From: Amphirosellinia nigrospora
Lineage: Eukaryota; Ascomycota; Sordariomycetes; Xylariales; Xylariaceae
DNA length: 64,000 nt
Assembly (NCBI GenBank): GCA_004123355.1
Contig: SCHM01000004.1
Coordinates: 2,636,316-2,700,315 of the forward strand
Direction: 5' to 3'
In this document: piece by piece, positions 5,983 through 55,757 of the stretch
Layout of the letters: every line of letters starts with the position of its first letter
Position numbering within the stretch: the first letter of the stretch is position 1
Notes under the pieces: generated by a model
Told to the model about the DNA's origin: nothing
Seen by the model: the letters and a program-made list of their open reading frames with translations, nothing else
Database searches by the model: none
Program-made: the position numbers and the translations under genes

Positions 5983-7115
5983 ATGGCGGCTGCCGACCCT
6001 TTCGACTCGGCACTGTACGTATCCCACTTCCCCCCTCTCGCTGCCCGCGTCCAGGTAGTTAGTTAGTTGTTCAACCAACGCACCCACTGCCAACACCACC
6101 GAGGGAGCAATGCGCGAACCTCCTCACGATATCACCACGACCTAATCTATTCTCCTCTGGCCTCCGATCTCCCACCGCCTAGACAGGACAGGACAAATTC
6201 AGCTAATCCAGACATCGCAGCGACCTCCTCCGCCGGCTCAACCCAAAGCACACGGCCGAGCACCTGCACGCCCTGATCAGCCTCGCGCCCGACCTGACCG
6301 AGGACCTGCTTTCCTCAGTCGACCAGCCGCTGGCGGTGCGGCGATGCCGACAGACGGGGCGCGACTACCTGCTGTGCGACTACAACCGCGACGGCGACAG
6401 CTACCGCTCGCCCTGGAGCAACGAGTTCGACCCCCGCTGCAGGACGGCGGCGCCCCCAACGGCGGGTGACGATGACGAGAACGCCGCCGGCCTCCCCAGC
6501 GAGAAGGTCCGGAAGATGGAGATCAAGGCGAACGAGGCGTTTGACCTCTATCGTGAGCTCTATTACGAGGGGGCGTGTCGAGCGTGTATTTCTGGAATCT
6601 GGACGATGGGTTTGCGGGCGTCGTGTTGTTGAAGAAGGGTAAGTTTATATATCCTCCCGGCCATGCCATGGATTTTGGGAGTGGGGGCGGGGCGTGAAGT
6701 CTCGCTGATGGGATGCACGTAGTATCTACGCCAGGCACCAGCGGCGAAGGCACGTGGGACTCGATCCACGTCTTCGAGGCCATCGACCGCGCGCGGCTGA
6801 CGCAGTATAACCTGACCTCCACCGTCATCCTATCACTCGCGACAGATTCCAACCCCGCATTAGGCGAGCTGGATCTCTCGGGCAACATGACGCGGCAGGT
6901 CGAGATCGAGCTCGCGGCCGAGAACGACGAGCAGCAGATTGCCAATATTGGCAAGCTCGTCGAGGACATGGAGCTCAAGATGAGGAACCTGCTCCAGGAA
7001 GTCTATTTTGGCAAGGCCAAGGACGTAGTGGGGGATTTGAGGAGTGGGTAGTTTGAGCGAGACGGCGCGCGATAGGGAGGCGCAGAAGGATCTTATCGGA
7101 AGTATGAAGAGGTGA
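5983..7115 (+). CDS. cap2: F-actin capping protein subunit beta
   Basis: The product caps barbed ends of actin filaments as a heterodimer with the alpha subunit. Exon 1 (5983-6014) encodes [11 protein letters not shown]. Exon 2 (6221-6638) continues with [47 protein letters not shown] and [20 protein letters not shown]. Exon 3 (6723 onward) carries [27 protein letters not shown] and the C-terminal actin-binding helix region ([19 protein letters not shown], then [19 protein letters not shown]). These are family-specific and in the right order, and the length of about 280 residues is normal. The reading frame is disturbed at four short runs: 6431-6435, 6464-6466, 6569-6573 and 7046-7048, all G or C homopolymers. 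The gene is conserved and normally single copy, so I read these as consensus errors. The 206-nt first intron is longer than the others. Confidence 0.92.
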
Positions 7116-26770: not shown

Positions 26771-28302
26771 ATGTCTCCTCTCTTCCCTACCTTCCAGGCA
26801 CTTCAGCAGACTTTCGCGCCCAGGGCCTCCGGTCAAACCGAGTCTCCGGCGCCGAATAAGGCGACGCCACGCCAAGCCCGCCCCGAGCTTTACAGCGCCG
26901 CCTTCTCCGCCCTCGACGATGCTAAGAAGAAGCTGAGCGCCGAGGCGCAGAAGGAGTTTGACAATGCGAGCGCCGCCACGAAGGCTAAGACGGGTCAAAT
27001 CGAGCTCTACTCGCCTGGCTTCTACGCCGCTGCTACATTTGGTGGTCTGATGGCTTGTGTAAGTGGCTACTGGTTCGTGGCAGTTGAATCGGGGTAGCTT
27101 TTTATGTTTCGTGACTATTCTTGTTGTTATTCAGGGCATAGGTGGCTAATATGGGACTATGTTCCCCTATTCTAGGGCCTTACGCATACCGCTGTCACTC
27201 CGCTCGATCTGGTAAAATGTCGTCGACAGGTTGATTCAAAACTATACAAGGGCAACTTCCAGGCCTGGGGCATGATCTATCGAGCTGAGGGTTTGCGTGG
27301 CATCTTTACAGGATGGGGACCTACACTCGCTGGTTATTCGGCCCAGGGCGCATTCAAGGTGAGCCGCCTAAAGGATCGAGATCCTATCGTGAGAATCTAA
27401 AAGAACCGGTATGACTAATATGCTGTCTGCGCATAGTACGGGTGGTATGAGTACTTCAAGAAGACGTATTCGGATCTCGCGGGTCCGGAGAACGCCTACC
27501 AGTATAAGACGCTCCTCTATCTCTCGGCCTCTGCCTCTGCCGAGTTCCTGGCCGATATTGCCCTGTGTCCCTTCGAAGCTGTCAAGGTTCGGATGCAAAC
27601 TTCTATCCCATCACCTTACGCCGGCATGGCGGATGGCCTAAGAAAAATAACAGCGGCGGAAGGCTTTGGCGGTCTTTAAAAGGTATCTACCCTCTGTGGG
27701 GACGTCAGATTCCCTATACCATGGTAAGTGACAACTGGCCTCGAACTCTGATTTTTATGTTCTCGTGAGACTACAATGCTTGATGGTCCTTAACTTCTGA
27801 GATCGAGATCCTTGTGCTATTGGGCGTGGAAAAAAGTATTCGAGGTCTAACTTGTGGTTTTGTAGATGAAATTCGCCTCTTTCGAGACCATCGTTGAAAT
27901 GATCTACGATCGTATGCCGGGTCAGAAGAGTGATTACGGCAAGGGTACCCAGACCGCTGTTTCTTTCAGCGGTGGATATATCGCCGGTATTCTATGCGCC
28001 GTTGTTTCGCACCCGGCCGACGTTCTTGTCAGCAAGTTGAATGCGAACCGTAAATCCGGTGAGGGTTTCGGAGCCGCTGTGGCGCGGAATTACAAGGACA
28101 CGGGATTCATGGGCCTCTGGAACGGTTTACCTGTGCGAATCGTAATGATTGGTACACTTACCGGTCTGCAATGGATGATCTACGTAAGGATTGAGGAAAC
28201 TATATTCTTTTTGACCACCCGCTAACAGGGGAACAGGACTCTTTCAAGATTTTCATGGGTTTCCCAACAACAGGTGGTGCTGCGCCACCAGAGAAGAAGT
28301 GA
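26771..28302 (+). CDS. MIR1: Mitochondrial phosphate carrier
   Basis: This inner-membrane carrier imports phosphate into the matrix for ATP synthesis. Five exons are supported: 26771-27058, 27176-27358, 27437-27723, 27866-28183 and 28237-28302. After an N-terminal extension, three mitochondrial carrier repeats follow: repeat 1 with [14 protein letters not shown], repeat 2 with [14 protein letters not shown] and repeat 3 with [19 protein letters not shown], all variants of the Px[DE]xx[KR]x[RK] signature. The phrases [35 protein letters not shown] and [14 protein letters not shown] are typical of the phosphate carrier rather than other family members. One frame break sits near 27675-27682, where GGL and [10 protein letters not shown] should join through one residue. 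The yeast symbol is used for the family; MIR1 versus PIC2 type is not resolved here, although the N-terminal extension favours the main carrier. Confidence 0.93.
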
Positions 28303-32008: not shown

Positions 32009-34448
32009 ATGGCAAGCTTCTTGAATAAGTGGAAGCCCGGCTCGGCGGTATGTCTCTGCCCAGGTTTTGGATTTCTTTTAGCTGTCCATACCTTCGCGAT
32101 CTGCACTTGCCACTCTATTCCGGCCTTGCCTTAGCTATTAAGTGCTGACATAGTTGTGAAAGTCCTTGAACTCTTCGGCGAAGGATGGCGTTAAGAAAAA
32201 GGAGGAACCTCCTGCCGAAACGACCCCTCTAGAGAAGATGCTTCAGAACGCCGGCGCACTCCGGCCAGATGGGAGTGATAAGTTTTTTGGCATGGAAAAT
32301 GTGAGTGTCCGGGTGTCCCGACATCAAATAAATCATTGCTGACTCCTGATACTTATAGTTTGGCAACACCTGGTATGTCGTGTCGTTTCGAGGCCTTGAT
32401 CTGCTGCTAACGTGATACAAGTTATTGCAACTCGATTGTCCAGGCCCTCTTCTATACGACAGCTTTTCGAGAACAAGTTCTGAATTTCCCGCCGTTATCG
32501 CCCCCTGATACGCCGAACGGCAGTCGGCCCAGGGTTAATGTGCAGATTAGAGCACCCAATACGAATGGCAATGCGCAAACAGATGCAAATGGCAAAAAGA
32601 ACCCGAACGAGAAAAAGCCGCCCACGGCTAGCCTCCCTCCACCGGGGCAGGTGGTGAAACCAGAGGATAAGCCAGATACCCGGAGTACAAGAAGAAACAA
32701 GCAATGCTGAAAGGACCTATTTTGGAATTGGCACAGGAGAGCACCAACACTTACGGGATGGAGGAGTGCACATTTACGGGCTTAAGAGACATTTTTATGG
32801 CATTGGTCGAAGGTAACACCCGCACCGGCGTACTTAGCCCGCAACGATTTCTTGAGATATTCAAGCGCGATAACGAGATGTTCCGGAACTCTATGCACCA
32901 GGATGCCCATGAATTCTATGGTCTAGTACTTAATGATGTCATCGCCAATGTTGAGAGCACTGCGCAGCGGTTATTGAATCGCGAGGCAGAACGTGCTGCA
33001 GACGGAATGACGGATTCTCTACGAACAGCATTAAGCGCAGTCGCCAAGACGACAACCAACGGAACGAACTCTCCCGGCACCGGCTGGGTACACGATATTT
33101 TCGAAGGGCTTTTAACATCCGAGACCAGGTGCTTGACGTGTGAGACGGCTTCCCAGAGAGATGAAACATTCCTGGATTTGTCGATCGATTTGGAAGAGCA
33201 TACATCGGTAACATCTTGTCTACAAAAATTCTCGGCTGAGGAGATGCTTTGTGAGAGGAATAAGTTTCACTGCGATCATTGTGGGGGGCTGCAAGAGGCC
33301 GAAAAGCGTATGAAGATTAAGCGTCTGCCGAAAGTGCTGGCTCTTCATCTCAAGCGATTTAAGTACACAGAGGACTATAGTCGGCTACAGAAGTTGTTCC
33401 ACCGAGTAGTATACCCCTATCAACTGCGAATGTTCAACACGACACCAGATGCGGAGGATCCCGACCGACTATACGAACTATACGCAGTTGTTATTCATAT
33501 CGGTGGAAATGCGTATCATGGACATTATGTGTCAGTTATCAAGACTGAAGATAGAGGATGGCTGCTATTTGATGATGAAATGGTAGAACCCGTCGACAAG
33601 CATTATGTGCGCAACTTTTTTGGGGATAAGCCGGGAATGGCTTGTGCGTACGTTCTATTTTACCAAGAAACCACTTTCGAAAAGGTCCGGGCGGAACAAG
33701 AGGCGGAAGGCCTAGAAGAAGTGAGGATCGTCAGTGAAAAAGCAGATGTTGCCCAAGAAACGAACAGGCAAATGGAGAAGTTAATGGGTTAACAAAACAA
33801 GTCACTGTCCCGGGTCGGCGTGCAGATAGTCACGATGGATTCCACACTTTAGACCATGCTGCTTCGGTGCCGAATCTTACTCGCAGTTCGTCTCACCGGC
33901 TACCAGTTCCGCCAACGCCTGACGATGTACCACCAGTCCCTGCATTGCCTAGGTCGAACACGGTCAAGTCGTTGAAAGAGACCAAGAGGGAAGCCAAGGC
34001 GCAAGAAAAGGCACAAGAGAAGGCGCGCAAGCAGGCTGAAAAGGATGAATGGAAAAACAAACGAAAACAGCGAGAAGAGTCATACTCACGACTACGCGAA
34101 GCGCGGAAAACAGAAGCAGCTGAGCTCAAGAAAGCGTTGGAGGAAAGCAAAAAGTCGGTGACCGAGGATAAGGAGAGGCAGAGCGAGGAACATGACAGCG
34201 TCCCGGCTCTGAATAGGGGAAGTCGAGGCAGCAAATCGATGTCGAGGAAGAGTTTTGGGTTTTTGAGAGGGAAGAGGGATAGCATCGAGACTTCTGACAG
34301 CAGTTGGAACGGTAGCCAGAACGGCGAGAGCGCGACACACGCAACGCAAACAGTGCAGCCAAAGGCCCCCGAGAAGCCCGAACATTTCAGTCTCCGGAAG
34401 AGCTTTAGTTTCGGGTTGCGGCGCAAGAAGAGCACCAAATTCCCCTAG
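32009..34448 (+). CDS. creB: Ubiquitin carboxyl-terminal hydrolase CreB
   Basis: This is a USP-type deubiquitinase, in Aspergillus part of carbon catabolite repression together with the WD protein CreC. Exons are 32009-32047 ([13 protein letters not shown]), 32163-32300, a 14-nt microexon 32359-32372, and 32422-34448. The catalytic Cys box FGNTCYCNS is split by the intron after the microexon, inside the Cys codon. Further hallmarks are [15 protein letters not shown], the zinc-binding pair ETRCLTCE and [16 protein letters not shown], the His box [11 protein letters not shown] and [20 protein letters not shown]. The C-terminal part from about 33960 is a highly charged coiled coil ([17 protein letters not shown]...), and a Ser/Lys-rich tail follows, as in CreB proteins. 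Single-base slips occur at the CCC run 32679-32681 and near 33783-33786. Neighbours give no clue to regulation. Confidence 0.93.
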
Positions 34449-41446: not shown

Positions 41447-44400
41447 ATGGAACACGACCTGTCCCCCGCCGACGGCGGTCGCTCCTCGCGGCGAGACCGC
41501 CTCATGGGCAAGCTCTTTAAGCCGAAAGACAAGAAGTTGACGAGCGAGGAGAGCGCAAACGAGATCTCCGACTTCCTGGGCACTTCAGACAGACTACAGG
41601 TCACTCATCCTCCCCCAAGACCACCTCCATTCCAGAACGCCGGCCTCCCGACACTGGCCATCGACACGTCCCAGGCAAGCCGCTTCACCAAAGCTGCCAA
41701 GTATGCCGCCGACTCTTCCCAACAGAGTCTTCCGTTTCGCGCACAGTCACACAGCCCACCGCGTCCACGGAGACACAAGGGGTTGACCGTACGCTTTGCC
41801 GATACGTACCCCGACATTATTGGTGAGGGAGGCGACGAATGTGAGACAGCTGTAGCCGAGATTGGTCGAAGAAAACGAGCGAAATCCGCTCCTATTGAGG
41901 CGTCTGCTCCTCCGACCAAGCAGGCAGTGTATATGGAAGGCAGGGAGGCACCTCGAGAGGAGATACGAAGGGGAATGATGACTTCGTACCTGCTCCCATT
42001 CGGCGAACACAGACGGGTTCTCTCAGAGATCAGATGCCAGCCGTACTAATTCTGTGGCTTCCTCGCGTACTCCTCCCGAGCCACCAAAACCAAGAGGTAT
42101 TCCTGCCGGGGAACCTGCCCCCTCGCGTTTCCTCGATACAAGCAGCCGAAAGGATGAGGACCGTCGTTCATTCATTGAAACCCACCAACAGGAGCAGAGG
42201 AGAGCTGAGGCGATGGCATTGACCGAAGCCATACGGTCTGCAAGCGGCAGTGCCCATCCCGATTGGACGATCACGTCTCGTCTCCTGAATCTGGCCACGG
42301 GTCGTCCCCTCAACAACGCCGGCAGCAGTATTCCGCAAGACCATCACAGGACCCACCCTCTCCCGTCGCCAGTGAAAAGCCCTCTCGGTCTCCTATACCT
42401 CCTTCATTGGCAGAATCCGTTTCCTCCATGTTACGAACACAATCTACGAGATCTCCCCTGACCCCCCTGAAAGAAATCCAGCTAGAAAGTCACCTCTCCC
42501 CGCGAAAACACTGGACAAGAGTCCATAGAACCGCCTTCCGCGAAGTCATCCTTACCGCCTATAGTAACAGCCCAACTTCCAGACTTTAATAGCGCGTCAT
42601 CTCAATCCCAAAGAATGTCTCCTGATGAGCTGAGGATCGTCACCAATAATTCTAATGACAGCCCCCCTCGGCATATTTGAGTTCTGTGCACTCTACATCT
42701 GACTTGTCTTTCAAATCGACCCCCATTACTCAGAATCCTGCATCGCGTGGATTTGGTTCAGTGGAAAGAACGAAATCTCTACACGATGTCGTATTAGCAG
42801 CTGGAGATGACGCGTTTGAGACCTTCATTGCTCGCACGAAACACTTGTACGAGCTGTTTCGTTTATATGCTGAGCAGCAAAGGCCGCTGGATACTGCTCG
42901 ACCGGAAGATGTTAGCCGGGCAGCTGTCTGGTGGTTCTTAAAGGGCAGGACGTCTCTAGAAAATGTTATTAGAAATCGTCCAAAGGACCCAGAAGAAACG
43001 CGCCATTTAATCGCCCGCTACCAAGCATATACGGACTTAGCCAAGGGTTATTGGTTGACCGAGGTCGCCCTCCCAGAAATTGCGGAGGGAAAGTATAGCC
43101 CGGTTGGCGGAGAGTTAGGAGATATAAGACAAGTCTTACAGTCCAATTTGCGTAAGCTGGCAATTTCGATGAAGAGAAATGGTTTCCTACCGCCGGACGA
43201 GCCTTTTCTTCCGCAGACTATGGATAAGTCTATCTGGATAGAATACCCATCCCTCAGCCAGGATATCATTGCGTTGCTTAACGGGAGATGGGATCCATGT
43301 TGACTGCCGCACAACAACCTACTCGTTCAATGGAATCGCTGGATGCATTACCTATTGGCGATACAAACAAGTACTTTATGTATACAAGAGTTCCTGTAGA
43401 CGTCTATCTCATGGAACAAGGCATCGAGTCCGCGCAGACGTATTTTCCTTGCATGCTCTCTGTAGTTCGGTCACCCGAGGAACCGAATCTCAACTTCGTT
43501 GTCGCAAGCCAGAACGGAAGTGTGTCTTTACGAATTCAATCCGACAAGAAAGCTGGCCCCAGCTGGTACAATGTCAAATGGAGGCCAGAAGCTTCCTCGA
43601 TCGAAATCAAGTTACCAAGAGGCTTTCTACTAGCAGTCCAATGCACCCAACAGGATTTTAACGTATTATGGGGCATCTTTGACTTTAGCAACAAGGTACA
43701 GGGCTATCTCTATCCACGGCAAGACGAGGTGGTTGCGTGCACTATGATGTTGCGAGGGTTTCATTATTTCGACGCCAATCCCCAAGGCAGAACATTCCCA
43801 AAGAAGCTGTTGGCCAATGTCAAGTAGCTCTCTTCGAGAAAACTTTGAAAGAAAATAGCCCCACGGGACCGCGAACGTTCCATCGTGGTTTCCGACTTGC
43901 TGTGGTAACTGGTTCGAGAACTCGAACTTTGAGTGGAGTCTCTCACGCGTTCGCACCACAACTCCCCATCCACTTCGCCATGCTGCGCGGCGAACAACGA
44001 GCACCTATGCTGCAGCTGGAATTCAACGACGGTAAAAACCGAGGTCGTATGGTCATGTCATTTTCGGATGAGAAAGAGCGGAGAAAGTGCTGAGATTAAT
44101 CAGTGGAAGTTATGTTCACCATGACGAGGAACTTGTGGCGGATGTACCGCTAGAGGGCATGGGCATATCGGAAGGACTGGCGGATATCAAAGGCGGATTT
44201 GCCGCGACTCAAGGATTACCATGGCAGCGAGCCCGCATCGTCAATGATCGATATGCTGGGGAGACTCCACAGACAGTACTAGCGGAGAAACTGAGGATTG
44301 AGATCGACTCTGTCGATAAGACTGGTGTTGGTATTGTGAGCACCATCACAGATCGTGTGAATGTTGCGCCTGGGGAGCTGAAGTTAAGGCTCGGCACCAA

Positions 44401-45114
44401 GGATATCCTCACCCTACAGGTTTTGCGACAGCCGCAGCTTGACCTGACGATTTCTCTTCTCGAAACCAGCGTACCAAAAGAATCGGTTCGCGATTTTGCT
44501 AGTCTCCAGAAATCCATCCAGAGTACTTCAACCGTGCGAACTTACCGCTTCCTAGTTTCAAGGATTTGCATGCCTTCCAACAGGGACTCACCGGGTATTC
44601 GGTTCTTTTTGACGGGATAGCTGCAAGTCTCAACATCTCGCGAAGAATGATGGTGGTTCCTATCCACAAAAATGGGAAGCTGGCACAACTAGAATCCAGG
44701 TAGTACAACAGGAAAGACGGTTCAGCTGCTCGCCTTCTTCGAAGACTGGCACCATGGCCAGTGCATGGGATTTGTGCTGAAGGGTACCGACGTATTCGAA
44801 TGTTTCAGCCGAGGTAGCAAAGCCGGGCTAAAGCTCGCAGACGCCAAATTCCACTTCCGAAGGTCCCGGCCGATGGTTCCTCCAAAACAGACGATATGGC
44901 CTTCTTGTGCTGGATATGCCTTTTGCTGGAGACACGATGATATTACTATTCTATTTGATGATGGTCACGGTAAGTCGCGTTTCCCCGAAAGTACAAGCAT
45001 ATTCGGATGAACTAACGGAGAGTTACGTAAACGGGATCGTCTTTGCTCCGTGTTGCCGGCCCAGTCAAAGGGTCGCGGCTTAGTAAAGTTAAGTGAGGTG
45101 CTAGCGATTATATG
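41447..45114 (+). CDS. Large conserved fungal protein of unknown function
   Basis: An almost uninterrupted coding region of about 1150 residues starts with MEHDLSPADGGRSSRRDRLM and GKLFKPKDKK. The first 400 residues are polar, rich in Ser/Pro and probably disordered. A folded part then begins near 42740 (SVERTKSLHDVVLAAGDDAF, LFRLYAEQQRPL, AVWWFLKGRTSLENVI) and continues with MYTRVPVDVYLMEQGIESA, FNVLWGIFDFSNKVQGYLYP, PIHFAMLRGEQRAPMLQLEF, GRMVMSFSDEKERRKLLRLI and LLAFFEDWHHGQCMGFVLKG. I recognise it only as a conserved Pezizomycotina protein without assigned function; the LEFND..MVMSFSDEKERRKLL stretch could be a PH-like element, which is a guess. The last intron begins with GTAAGT at about 44971 and the final exon and stop are uncertain. 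At least eight single-base slips break the frame, in line with neighbouring genes. Confidence 0.7.
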
Positions 45115-49938: not shown

Positions 49939-50563
49939 CTAAAACCGCCGACGCGTAGGCTCGGGGCTCGGGCTCCGGGAGACGCTCTTCTCGTCGCGGC
50001 CGCGCATCTTGAGCCACTTCTTGGTGGCGAGCACGAGCTCGCGGTCGAGCTCGGGGGTCGGGTTCTTGCGGTGTATGAAGTTGCAGAAGCCGCCCCGGAC
50101 GCAGCCCTCGCCCGAGTTCAGCCGGCAGCAGGCCTCGCGAAGTCGGTGACGGGGCTCAGCTCGCAGTAGATGGGGCGGCCGGCGTACCAGCGGCTGTTGA
50201 GCTCGTCGCAGGCCGTCTGGGCCGAGTCCTCGTACTTGAAGCGCGCGTAGACGTTGCCGATCAGGTGGTCGTTGGTGTTGTCGCAGACGAGAGCTCCTCG
50301 AGCTCGCCGTACTTGCACAGCTCGCACCACAGGTCCGTAGAAGGCGTCGAAGTGGTTCATGCACTGCTCCGCCGTCAGCCGCGACTTGGGGTCGTGCGCC
50401 GGGTTCTGGTACATCGAGGGCAGCAGGATCGTCTGCGAGTACGACGGCTTCACGTGCTTGCGCGAGCACCGGTCCCGTGCCGGCACGCGCCGATCTTGTA
50501 GTAGAACGAGCAGTTGACCTTGTCCTGTTCCGTGCCGAAGATGGAGGCGAGAAAATTGGCCAT
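49939..50563 (-). CDS. U2 snRNP auxiliary factor small subunit (U2AF35/U2AF23)
   Basis: This nuclear splicing factor recognises the AG of the 3' splice site. From ATG at 50563 it reads [20 protein letters not shown], then the first CCCH zinc finger ([13 protein letters not shown]...CSRKH), [16 protein letters not shown], the RRM-like homology domain ([56 protein letters not shown]), the second zinc finger ([23 protein letters not shown]), and a short tail [20 protein letters not shown]. No intron is needed. Frame slips lie near 50490 (G run in GACRHGD) and between about 50280 and 50345. The gene is essential wherever tested, so these are probably sequence errors. Codon use is very rich in G and C at third positions, unlike the accessory genes to the right. 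Confidence 0.92.
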
Positions 50564-51691
50564 TTGACGGTAGTCGGGGGGGAGTTGGTCGAGGTGAGGA
50601 GACGGGGATGGGATGGGATGGGTTGGACGGAGGCTGGAATGGGGCGCGAGCGCGAAGCTTTCGTTGTTGACTGCGAAGAGTGTCGCGCCTGTCGAGTGGT
50701 TTGCGTGTATGTCTGTTTGATAGGGAGATTGAGATCGGGCGGCGGTGGTGACGGACAAGGGAAGAGAACTGCTTTGCCGCAGAGGTTTGATAGTTAGTTA
50801 GTGGTGTTATACGACCTCTGTTTCTGGGTTAGAAATCTATGTTCCCAGGAAGAATGCGGATGAATTGGGGCAAAAGAAAGGCTGAGGTGGAGAATTAGAT
50901 GCAGGTAAAGATACTTGGTACTTGGCGTCCCTTTTTGGTGGAACCATCTGAGTCGAGGCTGACCAATTATCTATCGAAAACTCGATGATATGTCAGCCAT
51001 CTAGATATTTCTCCGCTAGCCACAAGCCACACGGCCTAGATTAGCTAATAATTCCGCAGCGCCATGCGGGAACAGAACAACCACCGATCCCCTGTACAGA
51101 AAAAAAAGCTTCTAAACCTTAGAGGCAAGTGGGTAATCAGTATTCTCACCGTCGCAACCTTGAGAAATCTGTAGAATCTCGACACATAGTTTTTAGGTAA
51201 TATCCTCTTACACTCTATCTCGATGTATTGCGATAACCAGACGGCCAATCGGAGACGCCTCGACGTGCATTTCTTACGGCATTGAGACTATCTATAGACT
51301 ATATACAGGATGCATAGAATTGCGTCGCCCTGTTGTCAATTGGAACGGCATCTACCGGCATCTCATTCTTAGTGAATAAATTGGCTTTATATAACGGACT
51401 AGCCGATCGGAACAGACAAGGGCGTAAAATTGACAAATTGGTGGAGACTGAGGACTATTACTCACAACGAGCTGCTTGTTGTATGCGAGAGGAAAAGCGA
51501 CGACTTCCTCAAGATAGCGGGGGTTTTTATTTATTTAAGCTACGCCCTAGGTAATCAGCTGAGCTTAATTACCAAACCATAACTTATTCCTCAACATAGT
51601 TTCCTACTGTCAAAGATTTCTCTTCTCAGACCTTCGCTCCCGCAGCTCGCGTTCGCACCGCACATCAAATGGCACCGTCGATAGCGAGAGC
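50564..51691. other. Intergenic, divergent promoters
   Basis: The region lies between U2AF (-) and the GNAT gene (+). No coding signal; G-rich just upstream of U2AF on the plus strand (about 50575-50640). Confidence 0.5.
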
Positions 51692-52940: not shown

Positions 52941-54568
52941 ATGTCGAACAGTCCCTCCGTTTACAACAGCGACCCCGAGATGGGCCTCGAACTTGGCAAC
53001 ATTTCCCCGGCGAATACCGGCACTCCGTCATCTAGTAACCAGCCAGCCAGCGGCCCTTCCGAACCCGAACCCGCGGAAGGCTACATCATGATCGGGTATA
53101 TGCCGGTGTCGAACGGAGACCAGGCGCACGCTCCTCCAGATCCTGCTCCAACTCCACCCATGGCACCTCCAAATACACCCGTGGTACAAGCACAGGGACA
53201 AGACCCAGCCCAGCCCGGCCAGCTTGTCGAGCAAGGACCCCCCGTCCAAGAACCTCATGTACAGCGAAGAAGATTCCGCAGATTTCTGGAAAAAGTCGAC
53301 TTTAGCTGGTATATCTGGCCAATGAACTTGGGCATCACCTCGATTCTGATATATGACTGGTCAATCCCCTACCCAGAATATAAGGGGAAGTTTTCGTGGG
53401 TTTGTTTATTCTACCTCGTTCTAAACTTAATGCTGTTCTCTGTTCTCCTTGGGTTGACCATTATGCGGTACCATAAAATCCCAGGAACCTATCAAGACAT
53501 GGTGACGCAACCTCGCCAAGCAGCCTCGTTCGTCATGGTACCTCTGGCCCTTTGGACGATCATCACCCTCTGCACCAGGCTTGTGGAAAATGAAACACGA
53601 GCCATCGTGGCTCTATGGGCATTATGGTGGATTGACGTGGCTCTTAGCCTGACAGCAGAACTTGGTATAACGCTCGCACTAAGTCTCTCGTGGGTTAGCC
53701 ATCCCATCGTGATTGCCGAATGCTAACAAAATGGTATAGCCAAACACTCATAGAAGATCTCGTTGCCCTTGATAACCTGTCAGGTAGTTAGCTTCTACCT
53801 GTCGCCGCTCCCATCGCCGCAGCAGCAGCTGGTGGCGACCTTGTTGCGAAGCTCGACACAGATCTAGCGAAGCTCATCACGATTTGGATCAGCTACGTCC
53901 TCCTGACCCTGGGGATCTTGCATGCTATCGTTATATCTCCCTTCGAGGTCTATAGATTCACCAAAATCGTAGTCGGGAGACGTTTACGAGTAGAGAACAT
54001 AACCGACCTATTCATTCCGCCAGCTACCCTTGCCCTGGCTGGATTGGCTGCCGAAGAGCTAGGAAGGCAAGCGTTCCAACGATCCAACATACTTCCAGTA
54101 TTATGGGAAAACAATCAATTGATGGGCGCTCACCTTTATACCGTGGGCCGCTTTTGCAGTTTTGCGTGCTGGTCTTTAGGGATATTCTGGAACTCCGCCT
54201 TGGCAGTGATTTTCCTGCCCCTGAGTATCAAGATGGTAGTGAGGGGGTTGTTCAACAACAACTGGTTATCCTTCCCGTTTTCGTTGGGTGTTTTTGCTTC
54301 ATCCTGTTCGAGACTGCTTCTGGAACACTCACACGAGGGCATCGTGACCTGTGGCTTTGGTCTCGGGGTTGCCGCCATAGTGATTCCTTTTGTCTTCACC
54401 CTGAAGACGATGGGGTGGGATGGAAACCTAAACTTCAATTGGGCTAACAACCGGGCTCCGCTGTTCGGCATGCCTGGAACCGCAAGAGAAAGACTCGCCT
54501 ACCTTAACAACCTGGTGTGGAGAGGGATACTGAGAGCCCTCCTCTGCGTTATGAACGTCTTCGACTAG
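52941..54568 (+). CDS. TDT/SLAC1-like transporter with in-frame TAG at a Trp position
   Basis: A membrane protein of 525 residues if read through, from exons 52941-53689 and 53740-54568 (intron with donor GTGGGT, TGCTAAC branch and TATAG acceptor). The first 115 residues are Pro-rich and hydrophilic, followed by about ten hydrophobic segments starting at FSWYIWPMNLGITSIL. The order and the motif LLPVAAPIAAAAAGG after the fifth segment match the tellurite-resistance/dicarboxylate transporter family (fungal Mae1 malate and Ssu1 sulfite transporters, plant SLAC1). The substrate is not predictable. Both exons are free of frameshifts, unlike most genes here, but codon 267 is TAG (53789-53791), exactly where relatives have Trp in WLLP. 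Bases 53781-53801 form a perfect 7-bp stem (CAGGTAG/CTACCTG) with the TAG in its 7-nt loop. Editing of the A to inosine would restore Trp. Other readings are a true nonsense allele or a base-call error. Confidence 0.85.
53781..53801 (+). promoter_or_regulatory. Hairpin presenting the TAG of the transporter (candidate A-to-I editing site)
   Basis: The arms CAGGTAG (53781-53787) and CTACCTG (53795-53801) are perfect reverse complements, and the loop is TTAGCTT with the stop codon TAG at loop positions 2-4. The candidate edited base is A53790, preceded by U and followed by G. Known sexual-stage mRNA editing in Fusarium, Neurospora and Sordaria favours adenosines in hairpin loops with U at -1. 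The structure is seen directly; the editing is inferred. Confidence 0.6.
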
Positions 54569-55757
54569 GCATGATAAACAATGTGTTTATAACATCTGTG
54601 TCTCTTTCGTGCTCGGAATGAGCGACGAGCCGATAATTTTAATAATAACTTTATAGTTTCTTTGAATCGAGTGTTATCCTTGGTATTTGTGCAGTGATAT
54701 CCCTACTCAATTTAGTTGAAACGGTGTAGGTGAAAACAAACTCCACTAACATTATAGGGATGAAGGCGAGAGAAAAGGGAGAGATTTAGCTATTTGCCTT
54801 GCTATCATCGCTTAGTTCCCAGCACTATTTTATTAATGTAGATTTTTATTATTTTAGTATTGTATAAATCCGGAGCCCAGTCTTGAGGTAGGAAATAGAC
54901 ACTTGTGGTATGAAGGTCTCTCAACTGCATTCGTGGAGGGCTGAGACTATACCCCTTTAATAATAACCCTTTCGGCAAAGCAACTTCGTAGCTGGAATAC
55001 AAGTACTGTGTATTTTTTCATAACGTATTTGACTGATTGATGCTATCCCGAGATTCCACCTAGAGGAGTCTCTAGGCTTGCTTACGTCCGTGTGAGATGG
55101 ACGAAGGCTGTCGTTGTGCCAAGTGGCTTATTAGCATGCCCTAGCTCCGTAGAGTTTCGAATGCTGTGTGTTCTTCTCCCTTAGCACCGATTGCCTCTTA
55201 TTGCTTTAGCCTTTCCGTTAATATGTCTTCATTGATGAAGTGAAAGCGACATATCTTAAATCAAGCATGGATTTATTTTATCTCACGTAAGTTGAAGGTC
55301 TGGTATCAAATATCGTTTTCGCATGCCTATGTGCTTTACAAATAATATATCGGCCGGCAGTCCTCCTCAGAAAACGATGAAATTTTGTTGAACCAGGACT
55401 TCTCAATTTACCCGCTGGTGTCTGGACCTCAGGCGCTGGCTCCATATGCCGAATGCCACCACGATAGCAGCTATGTCAATAACCGGCTGGGCACTTATGC
55501 GAGCTTCCCTCTGAGTCGTCGGGGAGCGGGTGTGCAAGTTCCGAAATAACACCATTTGCTTATTGGGATATAAGACTGTTGATAGGCACGCAGTATTGCT
55601 CAAGTAGACTTCGGAGTGGCTGCGTCTCGTCCAATAGGGCCAATTTCAGATTAAACTAGGATGGAAAATCAATATCCGGTCGCAATGATATAAGCTCGTG
55701 CCCGCTCATATCCACACTTCGCTGGGTTTCAGTCGAAGCTGAGTAACCGACAGCAAG
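54569..55757. other. Intergenic, 1.2 kb
   Basis: No coding signal on either strand; moderately AT-rich. It should hold the end of the transporter gene and the promoter of the oxidoreductase. Confidence 0.5.

Follow-up and report, generated by a model that had tools for sequence, protein, structure and literature searches.

A candidate stop-correcting A-to-I editing site in the predicted hairpin loop of a fungal SLAC1/TDT-family transporter gene

A predicted gene of the SLAC1/TDT transporter family lies at positions 52941–54568 on the plus strand of the window, the whole stretch of 64,000 nucleotides analyzed here. The gene model runs from an ATG at 52941 to a terminal TAG at 54566–54568 and contains one predicted intron of 50 nt (53690–53739; GTGGGT..TGCTAAC..TATAG), the removal of which keeps the frame. 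Exon 1 (52941–53689) is an open frame from the ATG, while exon 2 (53740–54568) carries both the terminal TAG and a second, in-frame TAG at codon 267 (53789–53791). The claim of an earlier note that about 1.6 kb of coding sequence is free of frameshifts and interrupted at codon 267 holds, provided that the predicted intron is spliced out: among the 525 codons that result, the in-frame TAG is the sole interruption, with no second lesion and no change of frame. Among start positions from 53000 to 54600, a textbook intron motif matches at this intron and nowhere else. The match adds little to the case for the intron, as the window holds 20 occurrences of the motif compared to a mean of 16.45 (sd 4.5) over 20 shuffles, which is no clear enrichment.

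The Pfam profile PF03595 is matched on both sides of the in-frame stop, at profile positions 3–123 by exon 1 (60.1 bits) and at positions 140–330 by the part of exon 2 after the stop (67.2 bits), and both scores exceed the cut-off of 27.9. From these matches the gene product is predicted to be a SLAC1/TDT-family anion or dicarboxylate transporter, a family exemplified by the Mae1-like dicarboxylate channels. The protein looks divergent, its halves scoring 60 and 67 bits where the top 12 bacterial matches reach 280–327 bits; other bacterial PF03595 members, however, score far below that range. The 258 codons 3′ of the stop retain their profile match, their third-position GC is 0.605 compared to 0.553 in the first half of the gene, and the codon-position composition of the two parts is alike. 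The composite RIP index of the gene (−0.41) indicates no RIP bias, and RIP across the whole gene was rejected on this value. Two other accounts of the stop were also set aside: a second, separate gene after the stop would have its first Met only at residue 111 of 258, and a changed genetic code conflicts with the TAG in which the transporter gene itself terminates. Neither exon sequence matched a chain in the set of solved structures at E values up to 1. The exon 2 protein found no relatives in the genome and viral contigs (genome_contigs and viral_contigs), a search in which only close relatives are detectable, nor in the plasmids by tblastn, and tRNA and Rfam scans of the sequence gave no matches.

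Several other genes in the window are spread over more than one reading frame. A U2AF small subunit similar to fission yeast U2AF23 (49942–50828, minus strand) is split over at least two and probably three frames; within 49.9–50.8 kb, U2AF23 residues 31–146 lie in one frame and residues 136–206 in another, and a zinc-finger match in a third frame, below the cut-off, abuts the other two pieces. The split is most likely the result of assembly indels in a gene with a third-position GC of 0.90. Capping protein beta (6207–7048, plus strand) has one frame change, between 6207–6629 and 6557–6694, where the profile positions overlap, and one probable intron holding an in-frame TGA at 6695, where about 100 nt stand for five profile positions. 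At 43282–45007 (plus strand) the domains DUF7611, DUF7612, DUF7613, and DUF7614 appear to belong to a single gene carried by ORFs in different frames; one frame change falls at 44072–44090, the junction of DUF7612 and DUF7613, where an intron would not fit, and an earlier one is probable, the DUF7612 piece in the first frame being below the cut-off. Both are further probable draft indels. A USP12/46-like deubiquitinase (32671–34445, plus strand) is followed by an overlapping ORF in another frame (33738–34445) that has no Pfam match and is perhaps a further frame change. Third-position GC is 0.89–0.90 in capping protein beta and U2AF, 0.72 in a GMC oxidoreductase, and 0.50–0.60 in the USP, DUF7611/7613, and transporter pieces. 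Positions 1–2600 are extremely AT-rich, with 7.9% GC in positions 1–2000, cytosine contexts of 6% CpA, 6% CpC, 65% CpT, and 23% CpG, and a composite RIP index of 1.14; this region looks like repeat DNA worn by RIP, and within it the segments at about 822–1000 and 1035–1240 look duplicated by eye. A scan of the window for in-frame stops whose flanks stay open for more than 40 codons returned 151 candidates, the transporter stop being invisible to it because the intron cuts the upstream flank, and the flanks of only a few high-scoring candidates were compared to Pfam. Of the 151, the TAG at 27992 (27758–28126, minus strand) is the one with the most coding-like flanks and could mark a second interrupted frame; no Pfam match was found on either side of it.

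The position of the transporter stop within the protein family was assessed with bacterial relatives, collected through a family search of 3 and of 299 bacterial genomes (one genome common to both). All 33 loci returned (L082–L114) were aligned, matches without a locus being left out. The column of the in-frame TAG holds Trp in 29 of these 33 bacterial rows and Leu in the other four, and Trp in all 12 of the relatives that score 280–327 bits (L086–L097). On this alignment the stop occupies a conserved, but not invariant, Trp column, and the rows of the relatives bear out the earlier placement of the TAG exactly at the Trp of the WLLP motif. The protein resembles the SLAC1/TDT family (PF03595) in that both halves exceed the cut-off and the stop falls where a WLLP-type motif would be expected. 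It differs from the best relatives in its low score, in the loss of the MFTRQ-type segment, and in the loop between the helix and LLP, which is 5 residues longer than in the 12 best-scoring relatives.

The in-frame TAG also lies within a hairpin. As had been noticed before, the 21 nt at 53781–53801 (plus strand) form a perfect 7-bp stem (53781–53787 with 53795–53801) that closes a 7-nt loop around the TAG, of which the A is the third loop position. When 30 nt on either side of each TAG are folded, the transporter TAG ranks 10th by local hairpin energy among the 1779 TAGs on both strands of the window; in 500 of these 1779 folds the A is part of a hairpin loop. Watson–Crick stems of at least 7 bp with loops of 3–9 nt are found at 10 of 1781 TAGs on both strands, and a 7-nt loop with the A in third position at only one. 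When the sequence was synonymously recoded with amino acids and codon use held, stems of at least 7 bp appeared in 2424 of 200,000 recodings (1.2%) and the exact hairpin geometry in 2175 of the same set (1.1%), so that, for this protein, the geometry is commoner than one would expect from the count over the window. The surprise that attaches to the hairpin lies between roughly 1 in 80 and 1 in 180.

Stability of the hairpin depends on the length of the sequence folded. The minimum-energy fold of the genomic strand contains the hairpin with flanks of 15, 30, 75, or 100 nt and lacks it with flanks of 50 nt; at ±30 nt, the published test length, the A is in a stable hairpin loop, and the hairpin is weaker in longer contexts. 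In sliding windows of 61 to 301 nt, stem pairing averages 0.59–0.91, while the pairing probability predicted for the spliced mRNA is about 0.06 at ±100 nt and about 0.4 at ±200 nt. The hairpin competes with other folds. In its geometry it recalls the anticodon arm of a tRNA, in which A34 is likewise third in a 7-nt loop, and the loop sequence UUAGCUU closely resembles the anticodon loop of eukaryotic tRNA-Ala(AGC), apart from a difference at the base after the anticodon.

These features can be compared to published descriptions of A-to-I mRNA editing in fungi. At Fusarium editing sites the main preference described is for U at −1, accompanied by C or U at −2 and A or G at +1, with weaker preferences for G at +2 and for A or G at +3 and +4, and with C at +2 and U at +3 and +4 depleted (PMC9600606). 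The same source places more than 62% of editing sites in predicted hairpin loops and gives hairpins more weight at sites with less preferred neighbors (PMC9600606). The transporter TAG fits these preferences at −2 (U), −1 (U, 53789), and +1 (G, 53791) and departs from the weaker ones with C at +2, U at +3, and U at +4. The editing is attributed to Tad2–Tad3 acting with Ame1, the preferences for A34 of tRNA being kept (PMC11156358), and the Tad3–Ame1 interaction is described as having arisen in the Sordariomycetes (PMC11087585), in a source that also states that the complex edits mRNA in yeasts. Genome-wide editing in the sexual stage is reported for Sordariomycetes and Pyronema; according to the same account, none was detected in either Aspergillus nidulans or Botrytis cinerea (PMC11156358). 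In Fusarium graminearum, PUK1 and another 70 genes are stated to require UAG-to-UGG correction (PMC11156358), and a membrane protein, AMD1, is named among the genes of this species that need stop correction. In the OLD–ZAO system, stops in ZAO are corrected under virus infection via the neighboring OLD gene, and the system is also described in Eurotiomycetes and one Basidiomycete (PMC12754623), so that stop correction would not be bound to one class. Among the titles and abstract openings found, no TDT/SLAC1 gene was named as a target of editing. In the window, a scan of 40 of the 89 ORFs of at least 70 aa at 45–64 kb gave no match to any deaminase family, in a draft where frames are broken.

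Taken together, the observed frame, stop, hairpin, Trp column, and family make the transporter TAG a candidate A-to-I site for premature-stop correction. Editing is the best single reading of the locus, held tentatively and at less than an even chance. The earlier assertion that loop, stem, frame, and amino-acid choice all agree stands for the U at −1, the G at +1, the loop, the stable stem, the Trp column, and the intact downstream frame; it does not extend to the depleted bases at +2 to +4 or to a hairpin that has to compete with other folds. If the base is real in the genome, the species edits, and the mRNA folds as predicted, unedited mRNA would yield a 266-residue fragment cut off within the membrane domain. 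In fruiting bodies, the Tad2–Tad3–Ame1 deaminase would take the local hairpin for an anticodon arm by its 7-nt loop, the U before the A, and the A in third position. Editing would then convert UAG to UIG, which is decoded as UGG, and the resulting Trp would allow for a protein of 525 residues. A little less probable is the fuller account in which a stop set in a mimic of the anticodon arm, with U33/A34-like geometry, holds the transporter off in mycelium and the tRNA deaminase switches it on in fruiting bodies only; in this account an alternative intron may serve as a second way to take out the stop.

A rather unlikely alternative is that the gene is real but a divergent paralogue that the fungus can do without, and that the TAG is an ordinary nonsense lesion in it, making it a young pseudogene or a null allele. 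Such a lesion could stem from a G-to-A change through RIP or cytosine deamination, as TGG to TAG is a TpG-to-TpA change in the RIP direction and the genome looks RIP-hit in the first 2 kb, with its 7.9% GC and depleted CpA and CpC; the low scores of both halves would also suit a divergent paralogue. Against an ordinary lesion of any origin, it would be single in 525 codons, the region after the stop is still coding-like, and the gene itself is without RIP bias. The lesion could also have come as one short strand-switching insertion in which neighboring bases were copied, so that the extra residues, the stem, and the TAG would share a single origin. The 5 additional residues before the stop are consistent with such an event, as is a 7-nt direct repeat (53775–53781 and 53797–53803, plus strand), found through a repeat search, that overlaps the inverted repeat of the stem; 7-nt inverted and direct repeats coincide at only 11 of 59,955 positions (7 places by eye). 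When segments were scored against 13 rows chosen for reading WLLP, TLIEDLVAL (9.3) was a better family segment than the stop-adjacent VALDNLSGS (6.8), and 324 of 20,000 shuffles of VALDNLSGS reached its score. If TLIEDLVAL is the family segment, the codons just before the stop would be an insertion; VALDNLSGS is the other candidate for this segment. One strand-switching event could thus have produced the stem, the extra residues, and the stop, in which case the hairpin would carry no weight as evidence for editing. A base error in the draft assembly, with the genome reading TGG or another codon at the stop, is a less probable explanation than a lesion and is considered unlikely. The draft looks error-prone, to the point that single bases in it are not to be relied on, with three clear frame changes that leave no room for introns (U2AF small subunit, capping protein beta, and the DUF7612/7613 junction) and two further probable ones (U2AF zinc finger and DUF7611/7612, on matches below the cut-off) in three conserved genes of the window, though genuine decay of these three genes is a possible, if less likely, cause. 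If the draft was built from long reads, substitution errors would accompany the indels; of the 2900 errors retained in one bacterial draft of this type, about 900 were substitutions (PMC12007338). For this reason, the earlier argument that a substitution differs from the indel-type errors elsewhere is weak, although about 1.6 kb of the transporter is indeed free of frame changes, and nothing would direct an error to an uncommon hairpin.

Splicing provides a further way to remove the stop, one that the editing proposal of the earlier note had not considered, and it is improbable as the explanation of the locus. Enumeration of introns identified an alternative intron of 98 nt (53694–53791, plus strand) whose last three bases are the TAG. 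Used as the only intron or as an alternative to 53690–53739, it would make the TAG a 3′ splice site, end exon 1 with the Trp codon, and join TGG to CTT CTA CCT in frame, so that the frame is left open and WLLP is rebuilt across the junction. The only other enumerated intron to do so (53619–53791) has a GC donor and costs a helix. The family alignment does not support intron 53694–53791: the 16 residues 251–266 would be lost where relatives carry a conserved segment, whereas a spliced-out stop is expected in a stretch that relatives lack, and the replacement residues score −9.1 compared to 6.8–9.3 for those retained. The donor GTTAGC and the skipping of nearer AGs after the branch-like TGCTAAC, which this intron demands, also count against it. 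FgBUD14 provides a precedent, its UAG being edited and the intron that holds this stop also being alternatively spliced (PMC11156358). In AMD1 and CHE1, conversely, annotators wrongly placed such introns over edited stops (PMC5496914, PMC11169179). An alternative isoform that uses intron 53694–53791 is possible. A second intron beside 53690–53739 was rejected: of the candidates that open the frame, some end at 53791 with a length of just 27 or 30 nt, and the others take away at least part of the LLPVAAP stretch. Explanations outside of editing, lesion, assembly error, and splicing are very improbable. The prior odds of editing and of an ordinary lesion are judged to be similar if the species edits, based on about 70 correction sites per genome and a general expectation of how frequent broken genes are. 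In the weighing, which is a matter of judgement, the hairpin favors editing, and the bases at +2 to +4, the quality of the draft, and the possible insertion count against it. The editing interpretation is supported in part: its cis features fit published premature-stop correction, while the intron ending at the TAG and an insertion carrying both stem and stop have to be set beside it.

Should the TAG be edited, the transporter would join the genes that fungi turn on through stop-codon editing, and a stem-loop so near the tRNA anticodon arm would be a clean substrate for setting ADAT loop geometry against the bases at +2 to +4. Should it not be edited, the locus would be a caution that an uncommon hairpin at a stop can arise through one mutational event or in an error-prone draft. 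If real, the site would be a further example of an already known form of editing, premature-stop correction, for which the transporter is a candidate member. The premature-stop-correction sites of F. graminearum (PUK1, AMD1, FgAMA1, and FgBUD14) likewise have a frame that is intact but for a UAG, which stands at a codon compatible with Trp, has U at −1, and lies in a hairpin loop; AMD1 shares with the transporter that it is a membrane protein, in its case of the MFS superfamily. Those sites are backed by RNA evidence, whereas the transporter site is a sequence-based candidate and departs from the preferred bases at +2 to +4. The hyphal site of CHE1, which encodes a zinc-finger factor, has its TAG in a hairpin loop as the transporter does. 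In both CHE1 and OLD–ZAO, stop correction works as a switch, with ZAO edited through its neighboring OLD gene, unlike what is proposed here for the transporter.
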